Assembly: GCA_964036195.1 (NCBI GenBank)
Contig: OZ038454.1
Span: 5,828,001-5,892,000, forward strand
Reading direction: 5' to 3'
DNA length: 64,000 nucleotides
Source of the DNA: Sphaerolaimus hirsutus
Lineage: Eukaryota; Nematoda; Chromadorea; Monhysterida; Sphaerolaimidae
Position numbers and translations under genes: made by a program. The notes beneath the pieces were generated by a model, which saw only the letters and a program-made list of their open reading frames with translations, did no database searches and was not told the origin of the DNA. Shown here piece by piece: positions 37,874 through 58,823 of the stretch. Positions within the stretch are counted from its first letter, which is position 1. Every line of letters starts with the position of its first letter.

Positions 37874-38060
37874 GCAGAAAATTTTTTTTCACGCTGGCGC
37901 TATTGGCGCTTGGCGCCATTGTCGTCTGGCGCCATTGGCGCTTGGCGCCGAGGTCCAGAATAGCGCCATGGCGCTTTTCTAGACCACGGCGCCAAGCGCC
38001 AATGGCGCCAGAGGATATTGGCGCCAAGCGCCAATAGCGCCAGCGCCAAAAATTTTCTGC
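37874..38060. mobile_element. short GCGCC foldback
   Basis: Ends gcagaaaattttt / aaaaattttctgc enclose two GCGCC-rich arms (ggcgctattggcgcttggcg and its inverse). Probably a distinct small family using the same arm motif as the TAGTGATGG elements. Confidence 0.6.
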
Positions 38061-38426
38061 TTCTCATATATGCAGCCAAGCTGATGCACTGCTATTAATT
38101 TGTTTTTGGCGCAAGATACAAGTCAACTGCAGTCACTTTTGTTCTTTTTGTCTTGATATTTTGCAGCTGGGTGTTTGGGCTTAAGTATAGCACACCATCT
38201 GTAAAAAGTGATAAGATTTTTTAGGTGTTTTTGAAAATTACTTTTGGAATTTAGTTGTTTTTCCCCAAAAATAATTTTCAAGATAGTTTTCAATTTTTTT
38301 TGGAATACGTTCAATTTTTCTTCTAGAATATTGCAGTTTCAAGTTTTGCTAGTCACTTTTGAACATAGGATTATGAGGTTTCAAATTTTAGATTGCCATT
38401 GCTGGAATGGCTTCAGGTGATTCCAC

Positions 38427-38592
38427 ACCCTGTAAAATCAAGTGTCAAATGTCAAGAAGTAAATGTGATGTAAAATGTCAATAAAAAAAAAAATTTTTGA
38501 CTGAACTTTTGACATTTCGCATGACACTTCACAAAGTTGTATTTATGAAATATTGGATGATGTTTATTACTCAACTTTACACTTTACAGGGT
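38427..38592. repeat. CCCTGTAAA-ended foldback
   Basis: accctgtaaaatcaagtgtc at the left and actttacagggt at the right, with gtcaaatgtc-like arms. Relative of 649-1069. Confidence 0.55.
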
Positions 38593-38737
38593 CATTTGAC
38601 CCTGCTCAAACAAAACTGCAAGGAATGAGCTCAGTATAGCGATTGAGCTAAAACCTATCTGAAGATTGTTACGAGTCCAATGAATAGTCACATAAAGTCT
38701 TACATAATTCTGATTAGATGGGACAAATGTTGAATAG

Positions 38738-39309
38738 GTAAACTCGGCGGACATGAAACGAATCAGTGATTTGGCCCTTCGTTACCAATGACGTGTGTTT
38801 TTTAATTCGAACTTGAATGGACGGATTCCATTCGGTTCATGTACATTTGATTCAATCCGACTTTTTATGCGAGAATGATGTGAATTTGATAGACAACTCG
38901 TTATAGAACGTCCGATTGTTAGGTCTGAGGTAAGATCTTACCGTCGCAGTCCCGACAAATTCATTCAAAAAATTACGTATGAACTTACCGCTGCGTCCAA
39001 GTTAATGAAGCGTTTTATACGAACGAAGTAAAAGACACATGATTTCCGTTCGCGTCAATGATAACGACCGCGGAATGCAATTGAGTCAACATATGTGTCA
39101 ACTCGTGTGTGGGCTGCCATTAGCAACCAATTGTGGTCGCTTAATCGCATTCCGCAGTCATTTTTGTTGACGCTGACGGAAATCATGCGTCTTTCATATT
39201 TGGTAACATTCTCGCAAACGGTAACTTGGACGTGTGCCAACTATGAATATATGCAGTTGTACGAAAATTCCTTAGACCATTGACTTCTATAATGTCCGTC
39301 GAGTTTACC
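38738..39309. repeat. imperfect foldback, GGTAAACTCGGCGGACAT ends
   Basis: The left ggtaaactcggcggacat is inverted near 39292-39309. Inner blocks (acatgatttccgttcgcgtc and gaaatcatgcgtctttcat) also pair. No duplication identified. Confidence 0.5.
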
Positions 39310-39451
39310 CATGCAATCACAAGGAAATTGTGTATAAAGTAATCAAGAATAGGGTATATTGATCCGGGAATACACTGACAGTAGCACATATACTTATGTA
39401 AATTATACTTAACAGGTCTTTCTGCATAAAAAATGATGAATTTTGAGTAAA

Positions 39452-39676
39452 CTTCTTGGCGCTTTTTTGGCGCTTTTTAAAACACTAGCGCCAAGCGCCA
39501 ATGGTGCCACGGCGTCATAGCGCCAAGCGCCAAAAGCGCCATGGCGCTTTTCCAAACCCCAGCGCCAAGCGCCAATGGCGCCACAGCAAAAAGGCGCCAA
39601 GCGCCAAAAGCGCCATGGCGCTTTTTGCTTTGGCGCTAGCGCCAGGCGCCCGCGCCATGGCGCTTTTCCATCACTA
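39452..39676. mobile_element. single right arm of the GCGCC hAT-like family
   Basis: GCGCC motifs ending gcgcttttccatcacta at 39676. The following 8 bases (ccgggaac) were not matched before any left end in the window. Confidence 0.65.
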
Positions 39677-39684
39677 CCGGGAAC

Positions 39685-40996: not shown

Positions 40997-41254
40997 TAGT
41001 GATGGAATGGCGCCATGGCGCAGATGCCCTATAATGGCGCCAAAGGGCGCCAGTGCCATGGCGCCATTGGCGCTTGGCGCCCTTTTATCTGGCGCCATCT
41101 GGTGCCCGGCGCCATTATTTCGAATGGCGCCATGGCACCCTTGGCGCTTAACGCCATTTTCGCTGGCGCCAATTTGGCGCCCGGCGCCATTGTTTTGGAT
41201 GGCGCCAGAAATGGCGCCAAAATTCTGCGAATAAATGTGACCAAATAGGACATT

Positions 41255-42932
41255 TGTCAGATATTTTACGTTTTTACTAACTTTACTACTTTCCGTTTTT
41301 ACCACAAAAATACGCCACTCGTCGAGTTTTGCCGCGGCGGAGAATTGCAAATTCCGGTCCCTTTGCGCTTCCACTTGCGTGCTTAATTAAATAAATAATT
41401 GGTTTTATGGTACGGGGATGTTTACACGCAAATCAGGAACGGCGCCAGTACCCCTTGGGGTCCTGACAGTTCCTGAGGACGGACACGGCAACTTACCACT
41501 CCCTTTCGTAACTGCTGCCAGCGGTTTTACTTCGATTAATTGTTAAAAGCCGTAATTAATGCAAAGCCGAAATTAATAAAATTCAAATTAAAATTCAAGC
41601 AGTTAGTATGCTTCAGGGGGACCAAGTTGGGTTCACGGGAAACTTTATTTTAGCGATGTAGTCAGAGTCAATTTCACAATAGCTCAAGTGAGTCGTATAG
41701 CCTCTAGTGGGTAAAAAGATGTAAAATCAGCGCGTTTTATAATCACCAAAAACCTACCATAATCGAAATGAATACTAAATCAGAGACACAACAATTAACC
41801 GTAATAAGCGAATTAATAAGGCAAATTCAATGATCACTGGAAAACCGTAAACATAGCGTACGAGGCACAAGTAAATTAATTCAATGCGGGAAAAATAATT
41901 AATTAAACGAACGGGTGCAAACGTAATTTAAATCAAGCGTAAAGTAACTGTGGTTATCACTGACGTAATTAAAATGCAATTCATCTCAAAGGTGAGTGTC
42001 GTAAACTGGGTTCTATTCAGAGGTTACGGTACAAATCAGAGCAGGTGGTGTGACACGTGTTATCAACCTGCGCCCCTTTAGGTGAAAAATATTTTTATAG
42101 CGCGCCCGACCAAGGCCACAGAAAGAACGCTCATTTGCGGGGTTTGTTCAAGGTTGTTGCATTGCCGGGTAAGGGTTGGAACTTTGGGACTAAACACACG
42201 CCACAAAACACTAGCACTTGTGAGTTCACCAATCACCCTGGGTGATGGGAATAATTAATTGGCACTACTGTGCTCTTCACTATAAACTGTGCTCTGCATG
42301 TGTCTTGCAGTCGCATGCCGACAATAATTGCCGTTTGCCACTTTTCCACCCATTACCTAGTCCTAAGTAGAAAGCACTTGGTCGGGGAATTTTCTGAATG
42401 TTATCTATCGGGGCGTCTGAGCATTTAACAGAGTCAACACCTGTTAGCTTAACTAGAAACATAAAGCCTTTCTAACCCATTCCCAGACACTGCACCCTTT
42501 TGACCAAAAATGTGAACTTGATAAAACCTAAAAATTATAACGCTCGAAAGTACATATTGGGAAATGCAAAAGAAAAACGGAAGTATTCACTTAATTAACT
42601 CAAAATGCGGGTAACCTAATTAGCTTAATTAATGAATCACTAAAATAAAAATTAAAAATTAGCGTCACACGGGAAATAATTAAATAATTAACGGAAAAGA
42701 ACCAATTAATAAATTCATGGCCGCAGTAGTGTCCATTCGGGCGTACCGTCCTGGGGCTGCGGCTTCGTTGGCGGATTTGCAGTGCACAGCGAACCGCACG
42801 TTCACTGTGACTTCCCTGTGCACCGCGGGTCGTTATTCGGTCGCACATGGTCGTTCTCGAGTCGTCAGAGTGTCTGCGCAAAGTTGTCGTTACGTTTTTA
42901 CGCATGATTAGTTAGCCATATTTCTACCTACA
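41255..42932 (-). repeat. 3-prime LTR (plus-strand left copy)
   Basis: Same length as the other LTR, with an offset of 15871 throughout and no gap seen. In the element's sense it starts TGTAGGTAGAAATATGG and ends ATATCTGACA. The preceding sense sequence contains a weak purine stretch (ggaggtaaaaaa about 20 bases away, and ggtggga next to the LTR), so the polypurine tract is not clear-cut. Confidence 0.93.
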
Positions 42933-43506
42933 ATCCCACCAGCCATTAATTTTTTACCTCCGGGCTAAAAACGACATGTTCAAAAAGTGTTTTGCGCCGT
43001 TTTTTGATTATTCAAAAATCATGCCTTCTCTGCATTTTTCGGTGGACGGCTGTGGAAGTCACATGCCCTGGGGGTGCAAATATGGTTCGTCTTCATTCGA
43101 ATTATGGCATCAGCTTTCTGCCGTGCCGGCTTTTTGTGCTCGGAACTTCGAAATTTTGGTTCCCGCTCAGGGCTCGATGTGAGAAAAAGCTTTTTCTTTT
43201 TTGATTTTGGAAAACTAATTAATCAGACTACTAATCTGTGTTATTTCACAGCATCGTGCCACTGTTGGATGGGCAGTTTGGAATCAACATTCAAGTTACC
43301 TGCTCGACCGACATGTCGCAGTCCGTGCGTGTGAAAATTGATCGTCGACAAGATTTTCTAATTGTTTTCATGGAATATTAACAAGTATGTTTTTAATTAC
43401 TGGTTTCTGTTACAAAGTTGTCTGTTTCTCCTGATGACAAAAAGTTGTGCATGAATTATTACGTTGAAACTTTGATAACTGGTTTTTTGACAAAAATTGT
43501 TTCATA
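42933..43506 (-). other. 3-prime internal non-coding tail of the retroelement
   Basis: Lies between the helicase stop and the LTR. No long frame is supported. It contains the possible polypurine tract next to the LTR. Confidence 0.6.
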
Positions 43507-46500
43507 TCAATTTTCACAATTACCATTTTCCATGTGGTGTTCTACCTGTTGCGCTGGAGCTTCCTCCGGTGGCAGTGGGATGGCCTCGACCGCGTCGTGG
43601 TGCTCGGGCGGCGGCGAGGGGGGCTCGGCTACGTTCTGCAGTGCCATGGCCGCCATGTCGTTGCTAATGGGGGAATATTCTTCATTAGGGCGGTAAACTG
43701 GTTCGACAACGGGCACCACTTCCTCCAACACCGGCACACCCTCCTCCCGCGCGTCTGCGGAGGAGTCAGAGCCCGCTGTGGCGGTTTCAATGTCAGACAA
43801 ACATTCCGCCTGCAGTTCTTCTTCGAGGGCCGGGTATCTGTCCGGTCCGACTAGTTCTTTCAAGTCGGCCCGCGGGCGCCATTCCGGAGGCCAAAATCCC
43901 AACACGTTTCCCCAAATTTGGCCTGACTCGTAAGAGTAAATCCGGTCGGCTTTGTGCTCGACCGTCAGAAACCGGTGGAAAAAGGTTGACCACAACATGG
44001 TCTCGGCGTTGGCCACCACGATGCGCACACATTTGGCGCGGGAGGTGGCTACGTTTCCCCGGGGCAACTCCGCTACAAATCCAACTCTACCGTACGCCTT
44101 CTTGGGATCGGCATCCAGCTGGGCGGAGTCGGTAGGCGGGCTGCCGCGCACGCAGGAAACGATGACCACTTCCGCTTCACGGGCCTGTGCCTTGTCGGCA
44201 GTGATCACGCGGGTGGCCCAGTAAGCCGCGTCGTGTTCTGTATGGGCTACTAGTCGACTGATTAGGGCGCGCGCCTGCGCCGCATAAAAACAGACAATTA
44301 GCAAACTAGCGGGATCGGTAAGATCTGCCCAGGGCAGGGTGGGATCTTCTTTCACTGTGGCCACGAGGTAGTCGTACAGGTGCAGGATGATGCGCAGCTC
44401 CTTTTTGTTGATTATGGACATGCCTTCTTTCGATTCGCAGCCCTGGTGCACCAGCGTCGATGACAGCATGACGCCATCCTCGAAGTCGCCAGGCGCGGGC
44501 AACATGGTGGCGCCGTGCGCTGCAGTGTCGTTGTAGGCGCGTAGCAGTCCATTGTACGCCGCCACGGAGTTGGCCTGAATGAGCTGGCGATGCCCGCGGA
44601 ACACTGTTTCCAAGTGAACCACGGGACATAGTTGGTATTGTGTGAGCCTATCAATGAGGGTGGGGTCGGGTTTCAGGACAGGCTCCACCCAGTCTTGCAC
44701 GCGGATCATACGCGTCAATTGTTTACTGTCTCCAAATAGAAGCAACATGCCGTTCACTGGGAGCTGAGCCGCCTGAGCCACGCTAATTACTGCAGCGTCA
44801 GACGCCAAAGACGCTTCGTCAATAATTACCGCGCACGCAGTCACACTTTTTATACGGGCGTCGTGGGCGGAGTCCAAAGTGACATGGATTTGACCGGGCT
44901 GCACCACCTCCAAGAACACCCGGTGCAGCCTGACCGTAGCCCTGACATATTTAGACAGCGCCCTACGCAGCACCTTACCCCAAAATCCCTGATCAGCTAA
45001 ACTAGCCTCACCAGCCCGGGCGCCCGCCACGCCTGCCTCGAAATCATCGAATGGCTGCTCGTCTCCATCGTCGGCGGTGAGAAATGGCACTTGTTCGGTC
45101 AGCTGCGCGCGTATGACGGCGTCGTCCGTGCAGTTGTTGATGATTTCGTCCACCAGTTCGTAGTCCCTCTTGGCGCCGTCGTACTTTTCCAGCGCTGCCG
45201 TCCATTCGGGGCTGAGGCGGACGATGTTGTGGCCGGTTCGCTGTGCTAGGGTGTGCAGTGTTGGCAATTGGGTCGCGGGGGTGGTGTTGTAAGTGGGGTC
45301 AGTTTCCCACATGGGACTCAAAACGCGCACCGGAAATGCCGCTCTTAATTTCAAAAATTCTTCAAAACCCTCCAGTTTTTGCATTTCAGCAAATGGCGTA
45401 TCAGCCATGGCGGTCCATTTCGCGCGCTCCCGCAATAAGACTTCTAAAGCCCCAAAAATATCCCGCTGCCCTAATTTATTCAGGTTGGCCAGGGCCCTGC
45501 GAGCGCCTTCGTCGGCCGCCGAGTTGACCGTGCACGTGATGAGCGTCGAATGGTATTTGGCGTTCGGCTGCTTGTCCGATGGCAAGTCGGAGCCCGCGCG
45601 CACCCTGGGTCTCGAGTTATAATAATTATAGCCGCGTGAACACACATACGCCAGTTGATTTTGTGTGGTCGTCTTCCCGGACCCGAAAGGCGAGTCACAC
45701 ATAATCAAAAGGGGTTTGCGCATTCGCACGGCTGTGATCACAGCTCCTAAAACTTCTACCTGCCCCTGCTGCGGCAAAAACTCACCTAATTTGGCCTGAA
45801 TCATTTGTTCGTTTTTTCCTCTGAACAATGATTCGTACAACTCACTAGCCTCGCGGCTAATGAGCGCCCAGTCAGTTTCGTCATCCAGCAGACGCAAATT
45901 CAATATCACAGCTAATTGGATTTGCGCCTCCAGGGTGAGTACTTTTGACCCCTGGACCACTTTCGGCACCCAGCCGACCGGCGCTTTGTTCAGGGCGGCT
46001 TGCAGTGATCGCATGGTTCGGTCGTAATTGGGCGAGTCGTTCGAGCCGCGCACCATGTATCTTCCACTCTCCAGGGTTCGGGGCAGTGCTGATTGCGACG
46101 CCGCCATGTCCAACTTCGCACGCAGCCTTGTAGTGGTTGGCTCTGATTCCACGCTGGTAATTCTGACTGATAGGTTGGGGCTGCCCGCCGCTGGTTTGTC
46201 TTCGTCCGGTCTGGCCAGCACCAAGCTCAACACCGACATGGGCGTCGCCTGGTTCAACAGCTGTGTCTGCGTGTTCACCTGCTCCAGCAAACGCACGCGC
46301 TGTTCTTCTGGTCCTTCGAAAGTGTCAGCTTGCAGCTCTTCTGGGTCCGGGCGGCGCACCATAATATCGCATGCAGTGCCCTGCGGCGTGTGCTCCCAGG
46401 ACACATGCGCGCACACGTCCGTTGCGCGTTTCGCCCGAAATCGCAAAAATGACTCGTTATAGCAGTGAGCCGCTGCTAAAATGCCCAATTTATACCTGAG

Positions 46501-47478
46501 AAACGAGTCCATGTTGTCTCTGTTCTCTGTGTCTGGCTGGATGCCCGATGTGCTGATATCCTCGGCCGTGGCGACCTGCAGCCCGTACGCATGGCCGTAG
46601 AATTCGTCGCCAAACACGTCCAGATCATTCAAGTCGTGATACTCGACGTGGGCCAGCCCCAACTGTCCCGCACTCAAATTTTCCACTCTGCTGTCACTCA
46701 CATATTCTCTGTGCAAAATGACCAGCTTTTCCGGCCCGGCATCACCTCGCTCCGCCGCGCCCAGCGGTTCCAGATTTTTGTAATTCGACGGCGTGAAGGC
46801 CGCTCGCAGCCGCGCTGTTTTCCAGTCGCTCGTGTAGGGCTGGTAGCCGGAAGTGTCGCCACGCGTCAATGTACGTGCCGCTTGAGTGACGCGCCGCGTG
46901 CCCTGCGTACTCACGACCACGGGGGCGGCAACGTTTAAAGGGCACTTTGTCTGATTACCCCATATCGCGACACCGGTAAACTCCCAGTACCGGGGATTTT
47001 CTATTTTTTGTGCGATTGCGGTCGCCGAGAAACGCATCCCGTGGCGCACTAGGGGCAGGAACATCGAGGGGTGTTGTTTCTGAATTTTCGCGCACAAATC
47101 CACCAACTGGGTGGTCCGCTTGTCCCTAGCCGCCTTGGCCCGCTTATTCGAATAATAAAAATACGGATAAGCTTCATCCGCATTCACCCACTGCTCGTTT
47201 TCGCTGAGTATCGCCATCGTCTGCTCAGAAATTCTCACATGGCACTGATACTCAACATGCCCGTCGGCGCCCGAGTCAATATACACCCTATCTACCCAAC
47301 CTTCGAATTTCCCTCTGCTGGGGTAGATTTCCGGTCCATTTTGCATCTGCTGCGCGCGGTAAAGTTGTCGCGGGGGAATGGTTCCGCCGCCGCAGGCACC
47401 ATGTGTATTTGTCTCCTTGGATTTAATGGGCGGGGCGTCTGCACCTTCAAATGGGCGTTTGCGAGAGGCCGAAGCCAT
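43507..47478 (-). CDS. UPF1-like superfamily 1 helicase (third frame of the retroelement)
   Basis: A 1323-residue protein with an ATG start. The C-terminal half shows the superfamily 1 motif set in order: Walker A (DSPFGSGKT, 595-603), DEAS box (887-890) with VIIDE before it, GDSKQL (916-921), ETVFRGHRQL (957-966, motif IV-like), VITADKAQAREAEVVIVSCV (1091-1110, motif V-like) and GNVATSRAK (1141-1149, motif VI). This matches the UPF1/SMG2-type SF1B pattern of ATP-driven 5-prime to 3-prime RNA or DNA unwinding. Spacing between motifs I and II is large (about 285 residues), so an insertion is present. Residues 1-570 show no domain I can name; the last 100 are acidic and Pro-rich. It starts 228 bp after the integrase stop, where env lies in insect errantiviruses. 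All motif residues look intact, suggesting selection. A role in genome RNA handling, reverse transcription or evading decay is conjecture. Confidence 0.85.
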   Translation of the reverse strand: MASASRKRPFEGADAPPIKSKETNTHGACGGGTIPPRQLYRAQQMQNGPEIYPSRGKFEGWVDRVYIDSGADGHVEYQCHVRISEQTMAILSENEQWVNADEAYPYFYYSNKRAKAARDKRTTQLVDLCAKIQKQHPSMFLPLVRHGMRFSATAIAQKIENPRYWEFTGVAIWGNQTKCPLNVAAPVVVSTQGTRRVTQAARTLTRGDTSGYQPYTSDWKTARLRAAFTPSNYKNLEPLGAAERGDAGPEKLVILHREYVSDSRVENLSAGQLGLAHVEYHDLNDLDVFGDEFYGHAYGLQVATAEDISTSGIQPDTENRDNMDSFLRYKLGILAAAHCYNESFLRFRAKRATDVCAHVSWEHTPQGTACDIMVRRPDPEELQADTFEGPEEQRVRLLEQVNTQTQLLNQATPMSVLSLVLARPDEDKPAAGSPNLSVRITSVESEPTTTRLRAKLDMAASQSALPRTLESGRYMVRGSNDSPNYDRTMRSLQAALNKAPVGWVPKVVQGSKVLTLEAQIQLAVILNLRLLDDETDWALISREASELYESLFRGKNEQMIQAKLGEFLPQQGQVEVLGAVITAVRMRKPLLIMCDSPFGSGKTTTQNQLAYVCSRGYNYYNSRPRVRAGSDLPSDKQPNAKYHSTLITCTVNSAADEGARRALANLNKLGQRDIFGALEVLLRERAKWTAMADTPFAEMQKLEGFEEFLKLRAAFPVRVLSPMWETDPTYNTTPATQLPTLHTLAQRTGHNIVRLSPEWTAALEKYDGAKRDYELVDEIINNCTDDAVIRAQLTEQVPFLTADDGDEQPFDDFEAGVAGARAGEASLADQGFWGKVLRRALSKYVRATVRLHRVFLEVVQPGQIHVTLDSAHDARIKSVTACAVIIDEASLASDAAVISVAQAAQLPVNGMLLLFGDSKQLTRMIRVQDWVEPVLKPDPTLIDRLTQYQLCPVVHLETVFRGHRQLIQANSVAAYNGLLRAYNDTAAHGATMLPAPGDFEDGVMLSSTLVHQGCESKEGMSIINKKELRIILHLYDYLVATVKEDPTLPWADLTDPASLLIVCFYAAQARALISRLVAHTEHDAAYWATRVITADKAQAREAEVVIVSCVRGSPPTDSAQLDADPKKAYGRVGFVAELPRGNVATSRAKCVRIVVANAETMLWSTFFHRFLTVEHKADRIYSYESGQIWGNVLGFWPPEWRPRADLKELVGPDRYPALEEELQAECLSDIETATAGSDSSADAREEGVPVLEEVVPVVEPVYRPNEEYSPISNDMAAMALQNVAEPPSPPPEHHDAVEAIPLPPEEAPAQQVEHHMENGNCEN

Positions 47479-47706
47479 TATAATTATAATAATGTGATAA
47501 AATAATTAATTGCGAAGTTTTATGAACGGGGAAAGTAACAAGAACTCGTGCGGTCCAGTCGCCCGTGGGCAAAAGGGGTGCACGAGCTTCCTAACAAAAC
47601 ACACACACTTTCACACACACTTCATACCTGTTGTACCTGGTTTCGTGTTGTTTGACGCGGCGGCGATGATCGTAACGGCTAATTAATCAGCTAATTAATC
47701 AATTTT
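47479..47706 (-). other. 228-bp gap between integrase and helicase frames
   Basis: AT-rich beside the helicase ATG (taattataataatg-type sequence) and more GC-rich further away. Such gaps often hold splice acceptors for a subgenomic RNA; I cannot assign one with confidence. Confidence 0.4.
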
Positions 47707-50454
47707 TTAGTCGTCGCCGTATAATTCACTGTAAGAGGGGGGAATTAAATATTCACTGGTTGCCTTGCAACGATCCGCATGAACTACATAAATTTTCTTA
47801 TTAATATTGTTGAATAAAGTCACTAATGGGTGGGCATAATCAATGCACTCATACGGGCCGATAAAGCGAGGCGCGAATTTCTTACTGGGGCCCGTCAACT
47901 GAGTAATACGCGGCGTGTATACGCGTACCGCTTGCCCGCGTTGCACATTCAATCGGCGCGCCCGGCGATTGGCGTAAAATTGCTCTTTTTGCTGCGCCTT
48001 TGCTAAAGCGGTATGCGCTGCTTCGCGTGCTGTGGTCAGACGCGCGCCTAATTCATTTATAAGAGCGCGCTTATGCGGCAATGAGGGCAATGCCTCGTTG
48101 TCAGGGGGAGGCTCGATCATTCGCTCCCACATGGACGCAGCAGGCTTGCCAAATAGCAACGCATAGGGGGTGGTTTGCAAGGAAGGGTGTTTCGATGTAT
48201 TGTACGCGTGTACAGCGGCGCCTAAATGTATGTCCCAATCGTCATGTGTACGATTTACATAGTGTGATACTATTTCCATCAGAACACCATTCCTACGTTC
48301 CACCATTCCGTTGCTCTTGGGGGTGTACGCAAATGATGTATGTTGGGTCGCGTTCAAATATTGTAGAAGCTTGGCAAAAGTGCCCTCGGTAAAGCTAGGG
48401 GCGTTATCACTGAGTATAATGGCCGGCACACTAAATATAGGCAAAATGTGCAACAGAAATGCAAATGATACTGTGTCTTGTTTTATGTCGGGAACGGGCA
48501 CAGCAATTCCAAAACGTGTGCACTGATCAACAAATACTAACACATGTCGGTTTCTGCGTTTCGTGGTTAGTAAAGGTCCTATTGCGTCTACCGCTATCAC
48601 ATCACCTGGCCTTTTGGCTACCTGGCGGCACACCATTTGAGTTCGCATTGCCGCTCTGAGACCTTTCTTGGCGTTGCACGAAGGGCAGGTGGCAACCCAG
48701 CGCGCACTTTCTGGCCGCATTCCTGGAAACCACGCGAATTCCTGCAACCTTTCGAATGTTTTTATTATTCCTAAATGGCCCGCCGTAGGGTGATTATGAG
48801 CTAATTCTAACACGAATGGGACTAATTCCGATGGAATACATACGGGGTCGTATAATTGTATACCTGGTATCTGGGACGTTCCCGCTTGGCGACGTAATAA
48901 ACCGTATTGGTCAATAAAATACGGCGCGGCGCTGTAAAAATTATCTGCGCGACACACTTCTATAGTTGTAGCTATGTATGGTTCTTCTGCTTGTAGTCGC
49001 TTCAATTTGTCAACCGAAGTCATTGGAGGTAGTGCCATGATTGTACTGCGCTTAGTTGCACTCGTCAAACCCGGAACAACTTCATTTCCGGCTCCTGAAC
49101 CACCAGCCATTGTTCCGGTTCCAGGCGCTTCCGCATTCCGCTGCCGCTCTCGCAGCCCGGGTGACTCCGCCTCTTTTCGCCCGCGCGTCCGGTCGCTGAT
49201 TGGTCGCAGTAACTCCGCCTCCTCGTTTACGCTGATTGGCTGGTACGCTGTCCTGCTTGCCGCAGCTACCGTAACCTGCCTATCGTGCGGGATAGCGATT
49301 TCACGGCACGTAACTTGTGCGAACTGCTCAAAGGCCTCGTCCAGGTCCTTTTTCTCGTCGAATACCACTGGTGCGTCTTGCCTTCTGGATAATGCATCTG
49401 CTAATTCGTTGCTTTTTCCCCGCAAATGCTTGAACGTGATTTGGTACGGCGTAATTGCTAAAGCGAACTTGTGCAGCATGGCGTGCGGGGTAGTCTCTAA
49501 ATTAGGATTCTTTACCCACGAAATACTCTTGGCGTCAGTCCAGACTTCAAAGGGCCGTCCCGCCAGATAACAATGCCAGTTACGTATGCTTTCGTAGATT
49601 GCACACGCTTCCAGAGAAATCGCTGGCCATTTGCTTTGGGTTGCACCTAACTTCCGGCTGTAAAAGGCACATGCATGTAGTATTTTCTCGTCCTCTGCTC
49701 GTTGTGCTAGCACGCCTGCAACAGCAATTTTAGAGGCGTCCGTGATAATTATAAACATACGTTTAGGATCGGGAAATTGCAGACATGGGCTTCCTAATAA
49801 TGCTTCCTTGAGCTTATGGAAAGCTTCCAGTGCCTTGGGTTTCGATGTCAAATCCACCGGGGTGTCGCTATTGTAATTTTCTCTTGGTCCCGTACGCGTG
49901 AGATTTGACAAGGGTACAGCTAGCTCTGCGCATCTGTGAATCATGCGTCTGAAAAAACCGATAGCTCCCAGAAATCCCTTTACCTCTTTTACGGTAGTGG
50001 GTACCGGCCAGTCCTGAATAATGTGCCGTTTATCATCTGGTACGCACACGCCGTCACGACCAATCATAAATCCTAGAAAGCGTACAGCGGTGACGCGTGC
50101 GAAAAAACACTTTTTCGGACTAATTTTGAAATTATTCCTAATTAATCTTTCCAACACCTGTCCTATGTCATATAAATGGGTTTCCCAGGTTGCACTATAA
50201 ATTAGTAAATCGTCGATGTATAGTAACACATTTCTATGTATTAAACCGGCCATGGCTAATTCAAAACAGCGCTGCGCTAAACTAGGTGAGCATTTTAATC
50301 CCATGGGTAAACGTTTCAGTTGAAATTGTCCAAAAACATTTCTGAATGACGTGATGTGTCGATCATCTGGATGCAAAGCAATGTTATAGAAAGCTTGATT
50401 TATGTCAGCACTGCTAAAAATACTTGCAGCTACATAAAGATTCGACTGTTTCAT
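47707..50454 (-). CDS. pol: Pol, second part: reverse transcriptase, RNase H, integrase
   Basis: 915 codons, counted from an ATG that is probably not the true start because the frame should continue the upstream one. Reverse transcriptase: motif A Asp at 17 (SSADINQAF), LPMGLKCSP near 49-57, catalytic YIDD at 79-82. RNase H: D239, E282, D307 and D353 in the expected order. A Ser/Gly/Glu-rich linker (about 360-480) precedes integrase: zinc finger H553 or H555, H560, C590 and C593; core D623, D683, E719 with the normal D-35-E spacing; GPY/F module near 863-869. The end carries PPSYSELY; PPSY (905-908) has the form of a PPxY WW-domain/ESCRT-recruiting motif, unusual at this position. All catalytic residues are present. 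Confidence 0.93.
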   Translation of the reverse strand: MKQSNLYVAASIFSSADINQAFYNIALHPDDRHITSFRNVFGQFQLKRLPMGLKCSPSLAQRCFELAMAGLIHRNVLLYIDDLLIYSATWETHLYDIGQVLERLIRNNFKISPKKCFFARVTAVRFLGFMIGRDGVCVPDDKRHIIQDWPVPTTVKEVKGFLGAIGFFRRMIHRCAELAVPLSNLTRTGPRENYNSDTPVDLTSKPKALEAFHKLKEALLGSPCLQFPDPKRMFIIITDASKIAVAGVLAQRAEDEKILHACAFYSRKLGATQSKWPAISLEACAIYESIRNWHCYLAGRPFEVWTDAKSISWVKNPNLETTPHAMLHKFALAITPYQITFKHLRGKSNELADALSRRQDAPVVFDEKKDLDEAFEQFAQVTCREIAIPHDRQVTVAAASRTAYQPISVNEEAELLRPISDRTRGRKEAESPGLRERQRNAEAPGTGTMAGGSGAGNEVVPGLTSATKRSTIMALPPMTSVDKLKRLQAEEPYIATTIEVCRADNFYSAAPYFIDQYGLLRRQAGTSQIPGIQLYDPVCIPSELVPFVLELAHNHPTAGHLGIIKTFERLQEFAWFPGMRPESARWVATCPSCNAKKGLRAAMRTQMVCRQVAKRPGDVIAVDAIGPLLTTKRRNRHVLVFVDQCTRFGIAVPVPDIKQDTVSFAFLLHILPIFSVPAIILSDNAPSFTEGTFAKLLQYLNATQHTSFAYTPKSNGMVERRNGVLMEIVSHYVNRTHDDWDIHLGAAVHAYNTSKHPSLQTTPYALLFGKPAASMWERMIEPPPDNEALPSLPHKRALINELGARLTTAREAAHTALAKAQQKEQFYANRRARRLNVQRGQAVRVYTPRITQLTGPSKKFAPRFIGPYECIDYAHPLVTLFNNINKKIYVVHADRCKATSEYLIPPSYSELYGDD
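50414..50420 (-). other. frame break in reverse transcriptase
   Basis: The first frame carries conserved RT sequence up to CKYF and then TAG. The next frame carries motif A directly after. The change is one base, located in a homopolymer (aaaaa at 50416-50420 on the plus strand). It is either an inactivating indel, a sequencing or assembly error, or (less likely, inside a folded domain) a programmed shift. Confidence 0.85.
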
Positions 50455-53400
50455 CTAAGCGGGGTAATGGGAATTGGGGAGCGTGCAAAACAGCGTTCAG
50501 GCGTCTGTAATCGATTACCATCCGCTTTGATCCATCCGGTTTGGATACCACCAGCGTGGGGGCACAATACGGGCTCGTACTGGGTTCCACGATGTCGTGC
50601 TCGATGAGGCATCTCAAATGATTTTCTAAGTATTGCTGATCATCCAGACTCAACCGGTACATTCTGCAAGCAATCGGCTTTTTGTCCACCAATTGCAACC
50701 GGTAGTCCACTAATTCGCTGTAGCCGATGTCATACTTGTGTCGGGCAAAAGCTTCTTTGTACTGCAAAATCACCTTTTTCAGTTCCTCTCTGCGTTCGTC
50801 CGTCAATGTTTCTGGCACAGTAAATTCCATCACGTGTCCATCTGGACATGCAACTTGCAGTGGAGGTCCTAATTTGTCTTCGGCTACTTTGGGGGGAGGT
50901 TCAGTCGCTTGAACCTGTCGACACACATCTCTGTCATAGCACTGCTTCACCCATTCAGCGGGAGGGTCTCCAGGTTTCACCTTCAGCACGCAGTCCACTG
51001 GTTCGACCACTGCAATGCGCTGTCCTACCTGTAGCACTACGGGCTGGTTTCGTACATTTGCACATCTCACCTGAAACACAGGGGCACTAGTTTCATAGGC
51101 CGCTGAAGCAGCCATAACGCCACAGCGTTCACCTACCGTATCCAATCCCATGACCGTAAATAACCTCTCATCCATGGGGGCAGATAATTTTGCGGTCACT
51201 AGCGCTTCATGTCTAGCCAGAATTTCTATTTTTTCATTCACAATAGCGTAAATTCTGCGCTGCTGCACTTCCGGGTCTGGGTTATCAAAGGGAATGATCG
51301 CATTAGCCGTAGGGATTCGTAATTCCCTTGCAGGTAGGTCCACTACCATGTGCCGTAAGACATCTGCACCAATTAGAATTTCACCAGCTAATCCGTTCAC
51401 TGCCTGAAACACAATCCCGAAGGTGTGGTTTCCCATGGTTACCGGTACTTCCATCTGTCCCAATACCAAAAGTTTCGAGTCCGCTGCACACCTAAGGGCT
51501 CCAATAGGTGAAACTTCATCATGCTTAGTAGCCTTTTCCTTGTGTCGCATCAGCACGTCTCTGTTGCATAATGAACGCATGGCGCCTGTGTCCAGTAGAC
51601 ATCTTCGATATTCTCTCCCATCAATGGTTATGGTAATGGATGGGCTGTAGTACACATGCACAATCTCTTCACGTCGATTGGCTACTTGATGGATGTTGTC
51701 TCTTTCTTCCGTCGAGAAAGTGATCATGCACACCGATTCTTCTTCCAGATCGCATTTTCTGTTGATACTGTATTGTATAGCGGGAAAACGACGCGCGCCC
51801 GTGAGTGCGGGCATGCCACTTGGCATTCCCACGCACGGGTTAATTACCGTTCTTACCTTTACCTGTTCGCTAGGGCGGTCCTCAGCCAATTCGACAATGA
51901 TATTGGACTTTTCTTCTGTCTTTGGTCGCCTTTTGATTTTTTCCTTTGCCCTGTTCACCAAAGTCACGGCCGTTTCCGGCGCTGCAGCCATGAGCGCGGC
52001 TAGCAAATACTGCATGGTGACCAGTGCACATATCAGATAGATCCATACTTGTAGCCAGGTGCGCCAGGTGTCAAAATCCCACCATCCCAGCGCTAATACC
52101 GATTTTGCCAAGGTTCGATGTCTTTGCATGTGTGATTCCACTCTCGGCTCCGCCCCCTGCGTAATTTGCCGCACGATTGAATATGCATGCCATACGTCAT
52201 TCAGGGTGGTCGTCGGCAATAATTCTGACAAGTTGTACATAGTCGTGGCGGCAAAAATCTGATGATGCACATCCCTGACTTTTTCCTGCTGCCATTTCTG
52301 CGGGAAACTGTGGGTGTTATACATAGGCAAATGTTCCAGGCCGCCGACTTCCGGTAGATATTTGTACCATTGTCCATTTAACATTACCACACGATTGTGC
52401 GCATTGGTGCATGAGCCCGGGATCGCTTGAAAATGCAAAATGTTTGTCAACCTATTCATGTGCAACGTCACATTCTGCCCGTGTACGCTAACTTGCACAG
52501 GTACTGTTTCATAACATTCTGGAGACTTCTTCTCTTTCATGATCTCGTATGTTTTTACCGCAAAACATTTGTGAACCAGAAATCCGTCCGGCGCGGGTTT
52601 GGCAATTATTTCGTTATCATTCATGTACCATCGGGCTGTCGTAGTTGCGTGTTCGCTCATAGCCAGGCGCACAAATTCTTGGAAGTGTTGCACATTCTTG
52701 CAGGTGGCTACGGCCTGCGCGCGCATGGTTTGTTCTGCTGTTTCGTATACCGCCTGCATGCTGGCTGCTAATTGGCCTGCGCTCACTATTCCCAGCGTGG
52801 GTCGACCTTGCGCTCGTTTTTGTCTGACGCTTCGAATCACTGCCTTCGCAAATGGCGCCACTACAATATCCTGGTCCGATTTCCATAATTTAATGCCGCA
52901 TGATTCAACCTCTTCATGTGCTCTGAAGGACAGTGATAGTGTATGATCATCAGCTAGCCAGATGTCCTGTCTAATGCGTCCATGCATTTCACGCCATTTT
53001 TCATAAGGGCATTCCGCCTTCGGGTTCGGCTTCCATGTTAATTGGCTGCCGTCTTCTAGTGTGCATGCACCCAATTCATAATTGCACTTGCTAACCTCAC
53101 CCAGCGTGCTTTGCATGGTGTTGGCTCCATATCTCATTCGTACTTCCCCTCGAAACAGCCCACAGTGTGGCGTCGTTTCACTCACCCATTTGCAACAGTA
53201 TAATCCATGTCCTGAGTAGCTAACATTGGTGGGGTACTGGGTGTCCCATGCGTTGTCCAAATCACTCACAGGGGTCATGGGCCCATTGTTGCACTTGTGA
53301 TATTTAATCATGCCTTCGCACTCGGCGGCGCCCACAGATCGGGGGTTAGAATCAAACTTTTCCAGCGTGACGTCGCCCCAGAAGTTCTGATACGTCTTTG

Positions 53401-56400
53401 CCGTTCGGGTAGAGGCCACACACCTGTGCGCTGCCGCACGATATTCTACCATATTTCGCTTGTAGATTGTCAGTGTCAATTTTCGTGGCCGTTCTAGTGA
53501 CGCCGTAGTGTCCACAATAGCCGTGCAATTGGGTAGAGGGGGGTACGTGTATAAATCGTAGTGATCTGTCAGATCGCTGCAGAGCAGTGGAAACGAGGGC
53601 ATGGTAGTCGCGCCCGCGCCCGGCAAAAAGGCTAATCCCATTATAATTAACCCAACTGCCAATACGAAAAACAGCGACTGTGCGACCTGAGGCATGTAGG
53701 GGGGTTCTGAATATGCGCGCGGCGCGGGGCGCACCCCTTCCTCAGTAGACAGAAAACCCATATACCTGTCTACCTGGTTGCTGGAGCCAGTACGTGGCGG
53801 CAGGGCGGCCGGCGTGGCGTACAAAAACGGGTCCAGGCTGATGTTCATGAGCACATCCAAGGGCACCTCAGTCAGCGTGTCCGAGTGGTCGTCCGCAGGG
53901 CAATTAGGCCACAACGTACAGTCCGTTTCTCTCAAGTCATGCATTCCAATCCTGCGTAGAAAAGCCAGCCAGGTAGTTCGAAACAGGTAACCTTTTTCAG
54001 TTCGCATGTATGCCCATGGTTTGATCCAGAATTCCCGCTCCTGCGCGAGCACATGCATTCCAGTAGTGCGCTGCTGCTCTTCGGGTGACTCCGGGACCAG
54101 TTCGTCAGGTTCCTCATCCTCTAATTCCAGGCCTTGCATCACCGGGATTAGTTTATTAACGGGACGTATCATCATGCAGCGATCATCTTCGCGCACATGC
54201 ATGGTCATTCCAGTCGTACTGGACACTCGCGTGGGGTTCAGCGACTCTACGTGTGGGTTACTTACCTGTACCGGTTGCATGTTATATTGTTGCATGCGCC
54301 CATCCGGTCCCATAGCCATCCAGTTAGCTGGCGGCGTTTGATAAGCCATCATTTGCGGTTGCATGTTCATATCGCCAGCCCTCTGTACCGTCTGCGCTGG
54401 TTGTACAGGCATCGGCTGCGCTGGTTGCCACTGCGGATATGCGTATTGCATGGGCATCATGCCTGGCTGCATCGCTTGGGCTTGATTATTTCCCTGATAG
54501 CCACCACGTTGTCCTCCGCCGCGCCCACGTCCATTTCCTCTGGATGCTCCGCCGCCGCGGCTCCTTTTGAAATACTGTTCCCTTTGTTCTGGGGTTAGTT
54601 TGGGGCACTCATATCTGATATGCTCTTCAGAGCCACATTCCCAACATCCTTTGTCAAATTTTCGTGGGGGCAATTTAGGGGGGTCCCTATTCAATCCCAA
54701 AAGTTTACCTTCCAACGCGCCCAGCTGCGCTAATTTCTTCGCTATCTCTTGGTGTACAGAGTCGAATTTGGCAACACTCTCAGTCATTTTCTGTTCCATC
54801 GTTTCTAACGTCTTGTCGGCCTGGGACGGCAGTCCAGCCATGGCGGGCATGTTTAGCGCCATCAACCTGTCCATTACCTTGTCTGTAGCGCTGGCAACCA
54901 CATCCTGTTTGGATTTTTCTCCCTTATTCTGGCTCTGTTCTGCTTCCAGAAAGCTCTCTTGTGCGCGTGCGTTGTCAACCATCTCTTTCCAAGTGATAGA
55001 CGCCGTGACAGGTACATTGCGCCGAATTTCATTTCTCAGTCCTCCATGAAATTTTATCATGCATGTGTCACCTCGTTTTTCATGACCCATGCCTGGATAG
55101 GCGCGTTTTATCAACTTTTCCAAACGTACCGCCCATTCCAGTACCGACTCATCTGCGCCCTGTCGCGTCTCAAAAATCTCTCTCTGTGCATGATGTTTGT
55201 CATTCGGATTTTCATAGAACTTTTCCAGTGCCTGCATCATGTCCTTGTAGTTCAGGTCGCGCAATTCTCTGTACCGCGTGTTGAAAATGGCTCTGGCACT
55301 GCCCTTCAGAAACAATTTCACCAGCGGCTTCCGCTCCTGTAGCTTTATGCGCAGCGCATCACATACCGTGTCCCAGCTCCTTCTCCAGTCCCTGAAACCC
55401 TCATTTGGCTTGCCGCGAAAATATCCACATTGCTGTGCTAGGGCTGTGATGACTGCCGCATTACTTTGCTCTAACTGCCAATTTTGTCCCGGGTCCGTGG
55501 GCCACGCCACTTCCGATGTAGCTGACGAGTTCCTGGAGGATGCTGGCGAACGGGATCGAGCGCGTCGCTGCGTAACAGTTCTCACCTGGTTCGTTCCAGC
55601 TGCCGACGGGGGCGCCGCTGGTGCCGTTGATGACTGTAAGGGCGCTGCTTGACCATTGGTCAACACTATCGGCTGCTGGCCACTAGCCGGTGAATTTCCT
55701 CCCAGCGTCGCATTCTGATTTTGTACGGCTTGATTGTGCTGTTGGTACGCAGTCGTCAGGTCAGCTATATCGTCGCTATGTACACTGTGGTGCGCTTCGA
55801 ATTCCTGCAAAAAATGTTCCACCCTAGGTACCTCGGCGACTGGGTCACTTCCCCATAAATTCATAGCAATTTTAATTAATGCCACCATACGCAAGTCCCC
55901 TGGTTCACCATTCTGTGAGAAAGCACCAACCGGTCTCGCTTGACTCATCATGTTTGCCCATTTCTTCGCCGCTGCACATGCCTTTTTAGGTGTCCATTGT
56001 GCACAAGATGGCGTTGTTTGCACCGGGTCCAGGTCCATTATGGTAGCTTGGTAAATTAAGTCCGTATTAGTGACCTTTGCGTACCTATCTTCCAGTGCCG
56101 GGGCCGCCGTCTGGTTCGCGCCGTTGTTTGTCATTCTGCTTGCGGGGCTGCTAATGATTATCACGGGGGGATTATTTGAAATTTCAGTCTTAATTAACTG
56201 GCGTCTAGCCTTTGCAGTTGCGCTCTGCGATCTCGACTGGTCGCTCGATAAATTCCGGCTACTGTTACCTGATACGTCTCTCGGCGTCGAAGTGCTCTTC
56301 GGTGGGCTTAACTGCAGCGCCGGGGAAGTGTCTCCACTCTGCGTCGCTGTCTCCAACAGTTCCGCTACGGTATTTTCAATCACGGGAAATTGATCTGCAG

Positions 56401-57010
56401 TAGCTCCAAGCTCAGCTGCAATCACAGGGTAATCACGTTGAATCGACGGCTGCCCTAGAGGCTCGCTGTCACCAACGTATCCGTCTGAACCGACTTCAGA
56501 ACCCGATCGCACTCCAGGCGATATGGATGAGCTGCCCGCGCTCCAACCCAGTGTCCTCCGAAGCTTAGACCACTTACCTGTCTTTCCTGCTTCCTTTCCT
56601 GCAGCTTGTCTGCTTGTCCCAGGCGCTTCTTCCGCTTCTGCGCTGGACGTTAGCTGCCGCGCCGCTGCCGGTACAGCTGGCGTCTTCCACTGACTGAAAC
56701 TGTCTGGCGCAGGCCCTGCACCTTCAACCGTTGATAACCTGATTACCGGGGTGTCCTCAGCTGTCTGTCCAGACCAGCGTTGACTTTCACTCTCCTCTAG
56801 CGCTTCCGGCGCCTCTGTTTCAGGGTTAACCGAATCGTTCGACTCACTGTCTCCTGCTTGACTCTCAGCTGCAGCAAGTTGTGCGTCCACTTCTTGCCCA
56901 GCCTTCTGTTGTCGCGCGCGCCTTCGTGCTTGTTTCTGCTTCTCCAACGCAGCGTGCCAAACTTGTTCTATGGTGTCCCCTTGTAAGCTTGCTGGCCCCC
57001 TCGATCTCAA
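50414..57010 (-). CDS. gag-env-pro: Gag / Env-like / protease / reverse transcriptase start, one frame
   Basis: 2198 codons, numbered from a TTG at 57010. No ATG precedes the frame; it is open from about 57088 and the first in-frame ATG is codon 293 (56134). Residues 1-300 are Ser/Ala/Glu-rich. 325-410 and about 528-692 look like helical Gag matrix/capsid. A CX2CX4HX4C knuckle has C789, C792, H797 and C802. An RGG-rich stretch (about 815-840) and Gln/Met/Pro-rich low complexity (about 845-920) follow. 1106-1690 is the Env-like module. Protease has LLDTGA near 1805 and ILIGAD near 1877. RT begins near 2086 (VSKPDGSKRMVIDYRRLNAV). The frame stops at TAG (50414-50416) just before RT motif A, so pol is cut by a frame change in a run of five A on the plus strand. 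Gag and Env in one continuous frame is unusual. Confidence 0.88.
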   Translation of the reverse strand: MRSRGPASLQGDTIEQVWHAALEKQKQARRRARQQKAGQEVDAQLAAAESQAGDSESNDSVNPETEAPEALEESESQRWSGQTAEDTPVIRLSTVEGAGPAPDSFSQWKTPAVPAAARQLTSSAEAEEAPGTSRQAAGKEAGKTGKWSKLRRTLGWSAGSSSISPGVRSGSEVGSDGYVGDSEPLGQPSIQRDYPVIAAELGATADQFPVIENTVAELLETATQSGDTSPALQLSPPKSTSTPRDVSGNSSRNLSSDQSRSQSATAKARRQLIKTEISNNPPVIIISSPASRMTNNGANQTAAPALEDRYAKVTNTDLIYQATIMDLDPVQTTPSCAQWTPKKACAAAKKWANMMSQARPVGAFSQNGEPGDLRMVALIKIAMNLWGSDPVAEVPRVEHFLQEFEAHHSVHSDDIADLTTAYQQHNQAVQNQNATLGGNSPASGQQPIVLTNGQAAPLQSSTAPAAPPSAAGTNQVRTVTQRRARSRSPASSRNSSATSEVAWPTDPGQNWQLEQSNAAVITALAQQCGYFRGKPNEGFRDWRRSWDTVCDALRIKLQERKPLVKLFLKGSARAIFNTRYRELRDLNYKDMMQALEKFYENPNDKHHAQREIFETRQGADESVLEWAVRLEKLIKRAYPGMGHEKRGDTCMIKFHGGLRNEIRRNVPVTASITWKEMVDNARAQESFLEAEQSQNKGEKSKQDVVASATDKVMDRLMALNMPAMAGLPSQADKTLETMEQKMTESVAKFDSVHQEIAKKLAQLGALEGKLLGLNRDPPKLPPRKFDKGCWECGSEEHIRYECPKLTPEQREQYFKRSRGGGASRGNGRGRGGGQRGGYQGNNQAQAMQPGMMPMQYAYPQWQPAQPMPVQPAQTVQRAGDMNMQPQMMAYQTPPANWMAMGPDGRMQQYNMQPVQVSNPHVESLNPTRVSSTTGMTMHVREDDRCMMIRPVNKLIPVMQGLELEDEEPDELVPESPEEQQRTTGMHVLAQEREFWIKPWAYMRTEKGYLFRTTWLAFLRRIGMHDLRETDCTLWPNCPADDHSDTLTEVPLDVLMNISLDPFLYATPAALPPRTGSSNQVDRYMGFLSTEEGVRPAPRAYSEPPYMPQVAQSLFFVLAVGLIIMGLAFLPGAGATTMPSFPLLCSDLTDHYDLYTYPPLPNCTAIVDTTASLERPRKLTLTIYKRNMVEYRAAAHRCVASTRTAKTYQNFWGDVTLEKFDSNPRSVGAAECEGMIKYHKCNNGPMTPVSDLDNAWDTQYPTNVSYSGHGLYCCKWVSETTPHCGLFRGEVRMRYGANTMQSTLGEVSKCNYELGACTLEDGSQLTWKPNPKAECPYEKWREMHGRIRQDIWLADDHTLSLSFRAHEEVESCGIKLWKSDQDIVVAPFAKAVIRSVRQKRAQGRPTLGIVSAGQLAASMQAVYETAEQTMRAQAVATCKNVQHFQEFVRLAMSEHATTTARWYMNDNEIIAKPAPDGFLVHKCFAVKTYEIMKEKKSPECYETVPVQVSVHGQNVTLHMNRLTNILHFQAIPGSCTNAHNRVVMLNGQWYKYLPEVGGLEHLPMYNTHSFPQKWQQEKVRDVHHQIFAATTMYNLSELLPTTTLNDVWHAYSIVRQITQGAEPRVESHMQRHRTLAKSVLALGWWDFDTWRTWLQVWIYLICALVTMQYLLAALMAAAPETAVTLVNRAKEKIKRRPKTEEKSNIIVELAEDRPSEQVKVRTVINPCVGMPSGMPALTGARRFPAIQYSINRKCDLEEESVCMITFSTEERDNIHQVANRREEIVHVYYSPSITITIDGREYRRCLLDTGAMRSLCNRDVLMRHKEKATKHDEVSPIGALRCAADSKLLVLGQMEVPVTMGNHTFGIVFQAVNGLAGEILIGADVLRHMVVDLPARELRIPTANAIIPFDNPDPEVQQRRIYAIVNEKIEILARHEALVTAKLSAPMDERLFTVMGLDTVGERCGVMAASAAYETSAPVFQVRCANVRNQPVVLQVGQRIAVVEPVDCVLKVKPGDPPAEWVKQCYDRDVCRQVQATEPPPKVAEDKLGPPLQVACPDGHVMEFTVPETLTDERREELKKVILQYKEAFARHKYDIGYSELVDYRLQLVDKKPIACRMYRLSLDDQQYLENHLRCLIEHDIVEPSTSPYCAPTLVVSKPDGSKRMVIDYRRLNAVLHAPQFPLPRLDETVESLCSCKYF
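51940..53695 (-). other. Env-like membrane glycoprotein module inside the Gag-Pol frame
   Basis: Residues 1106-1690 of the first frame. A Met (1106) precedes a hydrophobic segment (SLFFVLAVGLIIMGLAFL, about 1112-1129). The ectodomain has about 15 cysteines and four N-glycosylation sequons. A basic RQKR (about 1396-1399) looks like a furin site. A second hydrophobic segment (about 1656-1678, WIYLICALVTMQYLLAALM) is followed by a basic tail. The part after RQKR is helical and has a Cys-Gln spacing, then HKCFAV and ECYETVPV. I find this reminiscent of the central helical domain of class III fusion glycoproteins (herpesvirus gB, chuvirus type). That family link is a hypothesis from pattern only. 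It would make the element potentially enveloped. The frame shows no stop within it. Confidence 0.7.
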
Positions 57011-57105
57011 TTCCCTTTGGGGTGACTCGTTATCCGTGAAGCCGTTTTTTGTAGAGGCGTTGATCAGGCGCCCCAGACAGAAAACTTTATGGCTTGCTTA
57101 GGAAA

Positions 57106-57123
57106 CCACTCGCTACGCTACCA
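57106..57123 (-). other. putative primer-binding site
   Basis: Two bases inside the 5-prime LTR the sense strand reads TGGTAGCGTAGCGAGTGG. It starts TGG as expected for pairing with a tRNA 3-prime CCA end. I could not identify the tRNA from memory. Confidence 0.55.
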
Positions 57124-57125
57124 GT

Positions 57126-58803
57126 TGTCAGATATTTTACGTTTTTACTAACTTTACTACTTTCCGTTTTTACCACAAAAATACGCCACTCGTCGAGTTT
57201 TGCCGCGGCGGAGAATTGCAAATTCCGGTCCCTTTGCGCTTCCACTTGCGTGCTTAATTAAATAAATAATTGGTTTTATGGTACGGGGATGTTTACACGC
57301 AAATCAGGAACGGCGCCAGTACCCCTTGGGGTCCTGACAGTTCCTGAGGACGGACACGGCAACTTACCACTCCCTTTCGTAACTGCTGCCAGCGGTTTTA
57401 CTTCGATTAATTGTTAAAAGCCGTAATTAATGCAAAGCCGAAATTAATAAAATTCAAATTAAAATTCAAGCAGTTAGTATGCTTCAGGGGGACCAAGTTG
57501 GGTTCACGGGAAACTTTATTTTAGCGATGTAGTCAGAGTCAATTTCACAATAGCTCAAGTGAGTCGTATAGCCTCTAGTGGGTAAAAAGATGTAAAATCA
57601 GCGCGTTTTATAATCACCAAAAACCTACCATAATCGAAATGAATACTAAATCAGAGACACAACAATTAACCGTAATAAGCGAATTAATAAGGCAAATTCA
57701 ATGATCACTGGAAAACCGTAAACATAGCGTACGAGGCACAAGTAAATTAATTCAATGCGGGAAAAATAATTAATTAAACGAACGGGTGCAAACGTAATTT
57801 AAATCAAGCGTAAAGTAACTGTGGTTATCACTGACGTAATTAAAATGCAATTCATCTCAAAGGTGAGTGTCGTAAACTGGGTTCTATTCAGAGGTTACGG
57901 TACAAATCAGAGCAGGTGGTGTGACACGTGTTATCAACCTGCGCCCCTTTAGGTGAAAAATATTTTTATAGCGCGCCCGACCAAGGCCACAGAAAGAACG
58001 CTCATTTGCGGGGTTTGTTCAAGGTTGTTGCATTGCCGGGTAAGGGTTGGAACTTTGGGACTAAACACACGCCACAAAACACTAGCACTTGTGAGTTCAC
58101 CAATCACCCTGGGTGATGGGAATAATTAATTGGCACTACTGTGCTCTTCACTATAAACTGTGCTCTGCATGTGTCTTGCAGTCGCATGCCGACAATAATT
58201 GCCGTTTGCCACTTTTCCACCCATTACCTAGTCCTAAGTAGAAAGCACTTGGTCGGGGAATTTTCTGAATGTTATCTATCGGGGCGTCTGAGCATTTAAC
58301 AGAGTCAACACCTGTTAGCTTAACTAGAAACATAAAGCCTTTCTAACCCATTCCCAGACACTGCACCCTTTTGACCAAAAATGTGAACTTGATAAAACCT
58401 AAAAATTATAACGCTCGAAAGTACATATTGGGAAATGCAAAAGAAAAACGGAAGTATTCACTTAATTAACTCAAAATGCGGGTAACCTAATTAGCTTAAT
58501 TAATGAATCACTAAAATAAAAATTAAAAATTAGCGTCACACGGGAAATAATTAAATAATTAACGGAAAAGAACCAATTAATAAATTCATGGCCGCAGTAG
58601 TGTCCATTCGGGCGTACCGTCCTGGGGCTGCGGCTTCGTTGGCGGATTTGCAGTGCACAGCGAACCGCACGTTCACTGTGACTTCCCTGTGCACCGCGGG
58701 TCGTTATTCGGTCGCACATGGTCGTTCTCGAGTCGTCAGAGTGTCTGCGCAAAGTTGTCGTTACGTTTTTACGCATGATTAGTTAGCCATATTTCTACCT
58801 ACA
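57126..58803 (-). repeat. 5-prime LTR (plus-strand right copy)
   Basis: In the element's sense this is the promoter LTR. A TATAAAAATA box lies near 57960-57970 (about 835 bases into the LTR) and a TATAAAA near 57606-57612. An AATAAA occurs near 57515-57520, so the R region may lie between. These signals also occur in the other LTR. The short plus-strand frames within the LTR are not genes. Confidence 0.9.
57955..57972 (-). promoter_or_regulatory. candidate TATA box of the LTR promoter
   Basis: On the minus strand: GCGCGCTATAAAAATATT, in a GC-rich upstream context. A single strong match at mid-LTR supports promoter function, but no start site can be seen from sequence. Confidence 0.35.
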
Positions 58804-58823
58804 CATTTTTGGACATTTTATCG

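Follow-up and report, generated by a model that had tools for sequence, protein, structure and literature searches.

A predicted superfamily 1 helicase gene between pol and the 3' LTR of a Ty3/gypsy-like retroelement from the nematode Sphaerolaimus hirsutus

Introduction

To our knowledge, virus-like retroelements normally do not encode any helicase of cellular type. A stretch of 64,000 nucleotides from the nematode Sphaerolaimus hirsutus (contig OZ038454.1, positions 5,828,001 to 5,892,000; hereafter the window, numbered from its first letter) carries a retroelement with long terminal repeats (LTRs) that harbors, between its pol gene and its 3' LTR, a gene for a predicted helicase. The reading that we favor, with moderate confidence, is that of a recent Ty3/gypsy-like, envelope-bearing element whose own gene set would include a separate, full-length superfamily 1 (SF1) helicase belonging to the UPF1/Sen1/IGHMBP2 superfamily.

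Among the closest described systems, Burro elements are giant gypsy-like LTR elements of planarians that exceed 30 kb and carry accessory open reading frames (ORFs); their ORF1 contains MATH, BCL2, BIR and dUTPase-like motifs, and no helicase is named in the section devoted to Burro (PMC6431247). Some insect retrotransposons, mostly long interspersed nuclear elements, carry SF1 helicase domains of the plus-strand RNA virus type, two of which are fused to Ty1/copia proteins (PMC5563155, PMC6338049). According to their authors, these domains might suppress silencing, assist reverse transcription or serve in RNA quality control (PMC5563155). In bdelloid rotifers, the accessory ORF3s of LTR retrotransposons encode a DEDDy exonuclease or a GDSL esterase (PMC5408684). 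Lastly, Anakin elements, which are of the BEL/Pao type, carry a chuvirus glycoprotein (PMC7642597). Searches of the open-licence literature of PubMed Central listed no UPF1-type helicase gene within an LTR element, which is not proof of its absence in print.

A helicase gene inside a single LTR element

A single LTR element of 17,549 bp lies on the minus strand of the window (41255-58803) and includes a helicase gene located between pol and the 3' LTR. The features that delimit the element and this gene are as follows:

41251..41254: target site duplication CATT, left (LTR alignment and flank)
41255..42932, minus strand: 3' LTR (TG...CA), 1678 bp, identical to the 5' LTR
43507..47478, minus strand: helicase ORF (ORF C), 1323 amino acids, ATG start (ORF list, Pfam and motif scan)
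44005..44661, minus strand: second RecA-like domain, AAA_12, amino acids 940-1158 of the helicase (Pfam, 88 bits)
57126..58803, minus strand: 5' LTR (TG...CA), 1678 bp, identical to the 3' LTR
58804..58807: target site duplication CATT, right (flank of the 5' LTR)

The helicase ORF sits between the integrase encoded by ORF B and the 3' LTR, inside a single LTR pair and a single target site duplication (TSD). The identity of the two LTRs is complete over 1678 bp, the sole BLAST mismatch falling outside the LTR; as the LTRs are identical and CATT is duplicated, the element must have inserted very recently.

When the bases of the helicase ORF are shuffled (200 mononucleotide shuffles, three frames), the longest open frame has a mean of 142 codons and a maximum of 315 codons, and each of the other five frames across this stretch contains 31 to 56 stops. 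The SF1 motifs I, Ia and II to VI are all found and in order: I (GSGKT, amino acid 599), Ia (TVNSAADEG, 650), II (DEAS, 887), III (GDSKQL, 916), IV (VFRGHRQL, 959), V (QAREAEVV, 1098) and VI (NVATSRAK, 1142). The ORF, the motifs I to VI, the identical LTRs and the TSD bear out an earlier note on this DNA, which had described a 1323-residue SF1 helicase between pol and the 3' LTR within a single CATT-flanked insertion. The same note had reasoned that the retained motifs suggest usefulness to the element. This argument is weak: the LTRs are undiverged and there was no time to decay, so that the intact motifs show only that the source copy was intact, the present copy being too young to show selection.

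It is very improbable that the arrangement is an assembly artefact in which a retroelement and a helicase gene of the host were wrongly joined. Only one assembly is concerned, and a frame break in the reverse transcriptase (RT) region (see below) means that sequence errors are possible in this stretch, but the LTRs are identical, the TSD matches on both sides and the frame is open over 1323 codons and free of introns.

Family placement of the helicase

On the basis of its ordered motifs and of its AAA_12 domain (Pfam cut-off 27 bits), the protein is assigned to SF1 and, at superfamily level only, to the UPF1/Sen1/IGHMBP2 group. AAA_11 scores 18.8 bits, or 21.4 bits with the core alone, under the Pfam cut-off of 27. 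The similarities to the NCBIfam IGHMBP2 model (50 bits, cut-off 348.9) and to MkoA of PADLOC (57.9 bits) are likewise at superfamily level, and PHROGs yields one family of unknown function (23.4 bits). Twelve solved chains match at E <= 10: the top three (29.7 to 27.2 bits) are labelled 5'-3' RNA helicase-like protein and are presumably Sen1 of a fungus; others are NAM7 (14.9 bits), SMUBP-2 (13.0 bits) and, last of the 12, yeast SEN1 (10.4 bits). An AlphaFold2 model of the core alone was useless (mean predicted local distance difference test score 33.5).

The term 'UPF1-like' used in the earlier note holds for the superfamily and fails for UPF1 itself, whose solved chains match weakly (17.6 to 16.2 bits, best E 0.009). 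No CxxC was detected anywhere in the protein by a scan for Cys/His patterns, and amino acids 1-560 have no Pfam match; the protein therefore has neither the Cys/His-rich (CH) domain of UPF1 nor the zinc domain found in nidovirus helicases. UPF1 proper is ruled out by the lack of this defining N-terminal CH zinc domain, and a nidovirus helicase was rejected as the Cys/His patterns revealed no N-terminal zinc-binding domain. Dna2 and IGHMBP2 were rejected as well, as no RecB-like nuclease, R3H or zinc finger Pfam match was obtained at E <= 1, bar a ZFAND2-type one that is below cut-off (E 0.26). Viral_helicase1 remains under its cut-off of 21 (13.6 and 15.3 bits), which sets this helicase apart from those of insect retrotransposons.

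The carrier element

In the orientation of the element, the leader is followed by ORF A, which runs from gag through a zinc knuckle, the envelope and the protease into RT; by ORF B, which completes RT and adds RNase H and integrase; and by ORF C, the helicase gene. The regions upstream of the helicase gene are as follows:

50414..57010, minus strand: ORF A, 2198 amino acids counted from TTG, with gag, CCHC knuckle, envelope, protease and RT start (ORF list and Pfam)
55082..55321, minus strand: gag capsid region, Retrotrans_gag, amino acids 564-643 of ORF A (Pfam)
51980..53674, minus strand: envelope-like region, amino acids 1113-1677 of ORF A, from a signal-like to a membrane-like segment (Pfam and hydropathy)
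51362..51634, minus strand: aspartyl protease region, weak, amino acids 1793-1883 of ORF A (scores below Pfam cut-offs)
47707..50454, minus strand: ORF B, 915 amino acids, with RT, RNase H and integrase (ORF list and Pfam)

The TG...CA LTR pair with its short TSD and a pol that runs from RT through RNase H to integrase, including H2C2 and rve domains (Pfam), are those of Ty3/gypsy-type LTR retroelements, and 22 pol proteins of the same domain make-up as ORF B were retrieved at E <= 0.001 among 7996 scored. Judged from domain order and LTRs, the carrier is thus a Ty3/gypsy-like, envelope-bearing LTR retroelement. The envelope is of the mononegavirus type and lies in frame between gag and protease: Monjiviricetes_fusion matches amino acids 1298-1555 of ORF A with 26.6 bits for the whole ORF and 28.4 bits for the piece alone (Pfam cut-off 27), and a furin-like RQKR is found near amino acid 1399. 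The comparison of the envelope with NCBIfam gave no match, and its match to CD44 among solved structures (E 0.44) was discarded as meaningless. Searches for tRNAs and in Rfam had no match.

The window also contains the remains of a second retroelement (26883-28238, minus strand), with an integrase core (52.8 bits) and a partial RNase H domain just below cut-off. A GGCGCCAAGCGCCAA-type repeat is scattered in numerous copies, a part of which form long inverted pairs, over 35153-39677 and 59100-61360. A weak match to a ligand-gated channel (15.2 bits, cut-off 30.8) would fit an animal genome.

An ATG-free leader and a putative spliced helicase mRNA

Expression of the helicase gene could involve the following sites, the latter two being pattern matches:

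56135..57125, minus strand: leader, 991 nt, no ATG (sequence scan)
56570..56579, minus strand: splice-donor-like AGGTAAGTGG in the leader (inferred site)
47591..47605, minus strand: splice-acceptor-like pyrimidine-rich tract ending in TTAG (inferred site)

The leader does not contain any ATG in any frame (mean 9.8 and minimum 3 in 1000 dinucleotide shuffles), and, read in the frame of ORF A, it stays open over 321 codons (mean 102 and maximum 223 in 1000 shuffles), the first ATG of ORF A being at 56134 (amino acid 293). Such an ATG-free open leader may reflect initiation upstream of gag, either at a codon other than ATG or at a start added by splicing. TGG at 57123-57121 is a possible start of a primer binding site, to which no tRNA was matched.

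Four matches to the donor pattern occur between 58803 and 55000, including AGGTAAGTGG at 56579. Downstream, five YAG sites lie in 47720-47470. The three located upstream of 47625 would not serve, because an ATG at this position follows them; two remain below it, and that at 47591 has a pyrimidine-rich tract and is separated from the helicase ATG by 112 nt without any ATG. These patterns suggest that the helicase mRNA would be spliced, the ATG-free leader being joined to the acceptor near 47591; the helicase ATG would therefore be the first ATG of the mRNA.

Origin of the helicase gene

In the favored reading, the helicase gene would have been gained by the lineage long before the present insertion and then kept, in the place where retroviruses keep accessory genes. 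None of the 7995 candidates scored with the helicase core matched at E <= 0.001, and none of the 7992 scored with the N-terminal part did so at E <= 1. With no near relative in either candidate set, a long history of its own is more plausible for the gene than recent copying from a conserved gene of the host. A scan of viral contigs gave 6 pattern matches for the helicase, 2 for the envelope and 9 for pol, and a scan of genome contigs gave 11 for the helicase; none was confirmed, both scans detecting close relatives only. The blank helicase scans say little, because pol, which is common, was equally blank in viral contigs, and the searches are weak for eukaryotes. With tblastn, the helicase core matched 102 plasmid records and a single phage record, the latter with 47 bits; for the 10 matches listed, identity is 24-29% and query coverage 43-48%, a similarity at superfamily level.

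Several points weigh against the favored reading. The third-position GC of its gene is 0.65 (ORF A, 0.525; ORF B, 0.456), and the correlation of codon usage is 0.88 between ORF A and ORF B, 0.82 between ORF A and the helicase and 0.65 between ORF B and the helicase. The gene is in this respect unlike pol, as a passenger would be, and may have a different origin. A second copy of the helicase-bearing element was not seen, no search for copies elsewhere in the genome having been made. The putative splice sites are consensus matches, and AGGTAAGT is found once more within the element. Finally, RT is interrupted at 50414-50454, where ORF A and ORF B share bases in differing frames; given the identical LTRs, this break may be a recent lesion or an error in the sequence.

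The composition and the sighting of one copy only would also be expected if a host helicase transcript had been captured once as a cargo useless to the element. So would a 12-bp direct repeat, CTGATTAATTAG, which brackets the helicase cassette (47679-47690 and 43215-43226, minus strand) and is found nowhere else in the window. However, its controls are mixed, a length of 12 being reached in 25 of 2000 shuffles, 0 of 165 LTR-LTR piece pairs and 17 of 46 flank-LTR comparisons, and the repeat was not used as a capture scar. In addition, the gene has an intact frame, with no trace of an intron or of a poly(A) tail noticed, and a freshly captured, conserved host helicase would be expected to far exceed 88 bits for AAA_12 and 17.6 bits for UPF1, unless its source was a fast-evolving host helicase. 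We regard such a capture as unlikely. Still less probable is that another mobile element, or a fragment of a virus, brought the helicase in by inserting between pol and the 3' LTR: the same flanking repeat, with its mixed controls, would suit such an insertion, but neither terminal inverted repeats nor a transposase frame were found in 42933-47800, and the spacing between acceptor and helicase ATG suits the element.

Possible role of the helicase

Among host factors, UPF1, Sen1/SETX and MOV10 are known to act on the RNA of retroelements, and the cellular relatives of the helicase use ATP to translocate along single-stranded nucleic acid. From its superfamily, the helicase would be such a translocase and would act on the element's own RNA. 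More than 4.7 kb separate the stop codon of pol from the 3' LTR, and the genomic RNA is therefore an expected target of nonsense-mediated decay. The helicase could remove or rearrange host complexes of decay or silencing on the element RNA; alternatively, it could aid RT through structured RNA and RNA:DNA hybrids. Protection of RNA is the role that we tentatively place first; help to reverse transcription comes next and is rather doubtful, and some other role is about as doubtful as the latter. Taken as a whole, a possible picture, which we put forward with reserve, is that of an infectious-type Ty3/gypsy lineage with the order gag-env-pro-pol-helicase, whose anciently acquired cellular-type helicase would be expressed from its own spliced mRNA and would shield or remodel the element RNA.

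If the element owns such a helicase, one could test whether retroelements counter RNA decay and silencing by means of an enzyme copy of their own, and the range of genes open to capture by LTR elements would grow by a new class.

Comparison with known systems

The helicase shares its superfamily and the order of its motifs with cellular UPF1, Sen1 and IGHMBP2, but no CH, R3H or nuclease domain was found in it and the similarity is only remote.

As regards its carrier, the element resembles Burro in the layout described for the latter, with gag, a mononegavirus-type fusion protein or envelope in frame before the protease, and RT-RNase H-integrase, as well as in its very large size and the presence of one or more accessory ORFs. 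It differs from Burro by its size of 17.5 kb, by its helicase ORF and by the lack, at E <= 1, of MATH, BCL2, BIR and dUTPase-like domains in ORF A (PMC6431247). Its envelope and that of Anakin share a broad origin among negative-strand viruses; Anakin is of the BEL/Pao type, and the passages on it name no helicase (PMC7642597). Troyka was dropped from the comparison, as it has 3-bp TSDs and CG...CG termini, versus 4 bp and TG...CA here (PMC12440569).

Like the bdelloid ORF3s, the helicase gene is an additional enzyme gene located 3' of pol, although the bdelloid enzymes are not helicases, and the passages on them mention a helicase in the title of a reference only (PMC5408684). Like the insect helicases, it is borne by a retrotransposon and has SF1 motifs; unlike the fused, RNA-virus-type insect domains, it is a separate ORF of the UPF1/Sen1 type (PMC5563155, PMC6338049). 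For retrotransposons, both the capture of ORFs and helicases of viral type have already been published, and a helicase of the UPF1/Sen1 superfamily in an LTR element is a variant on that theme.

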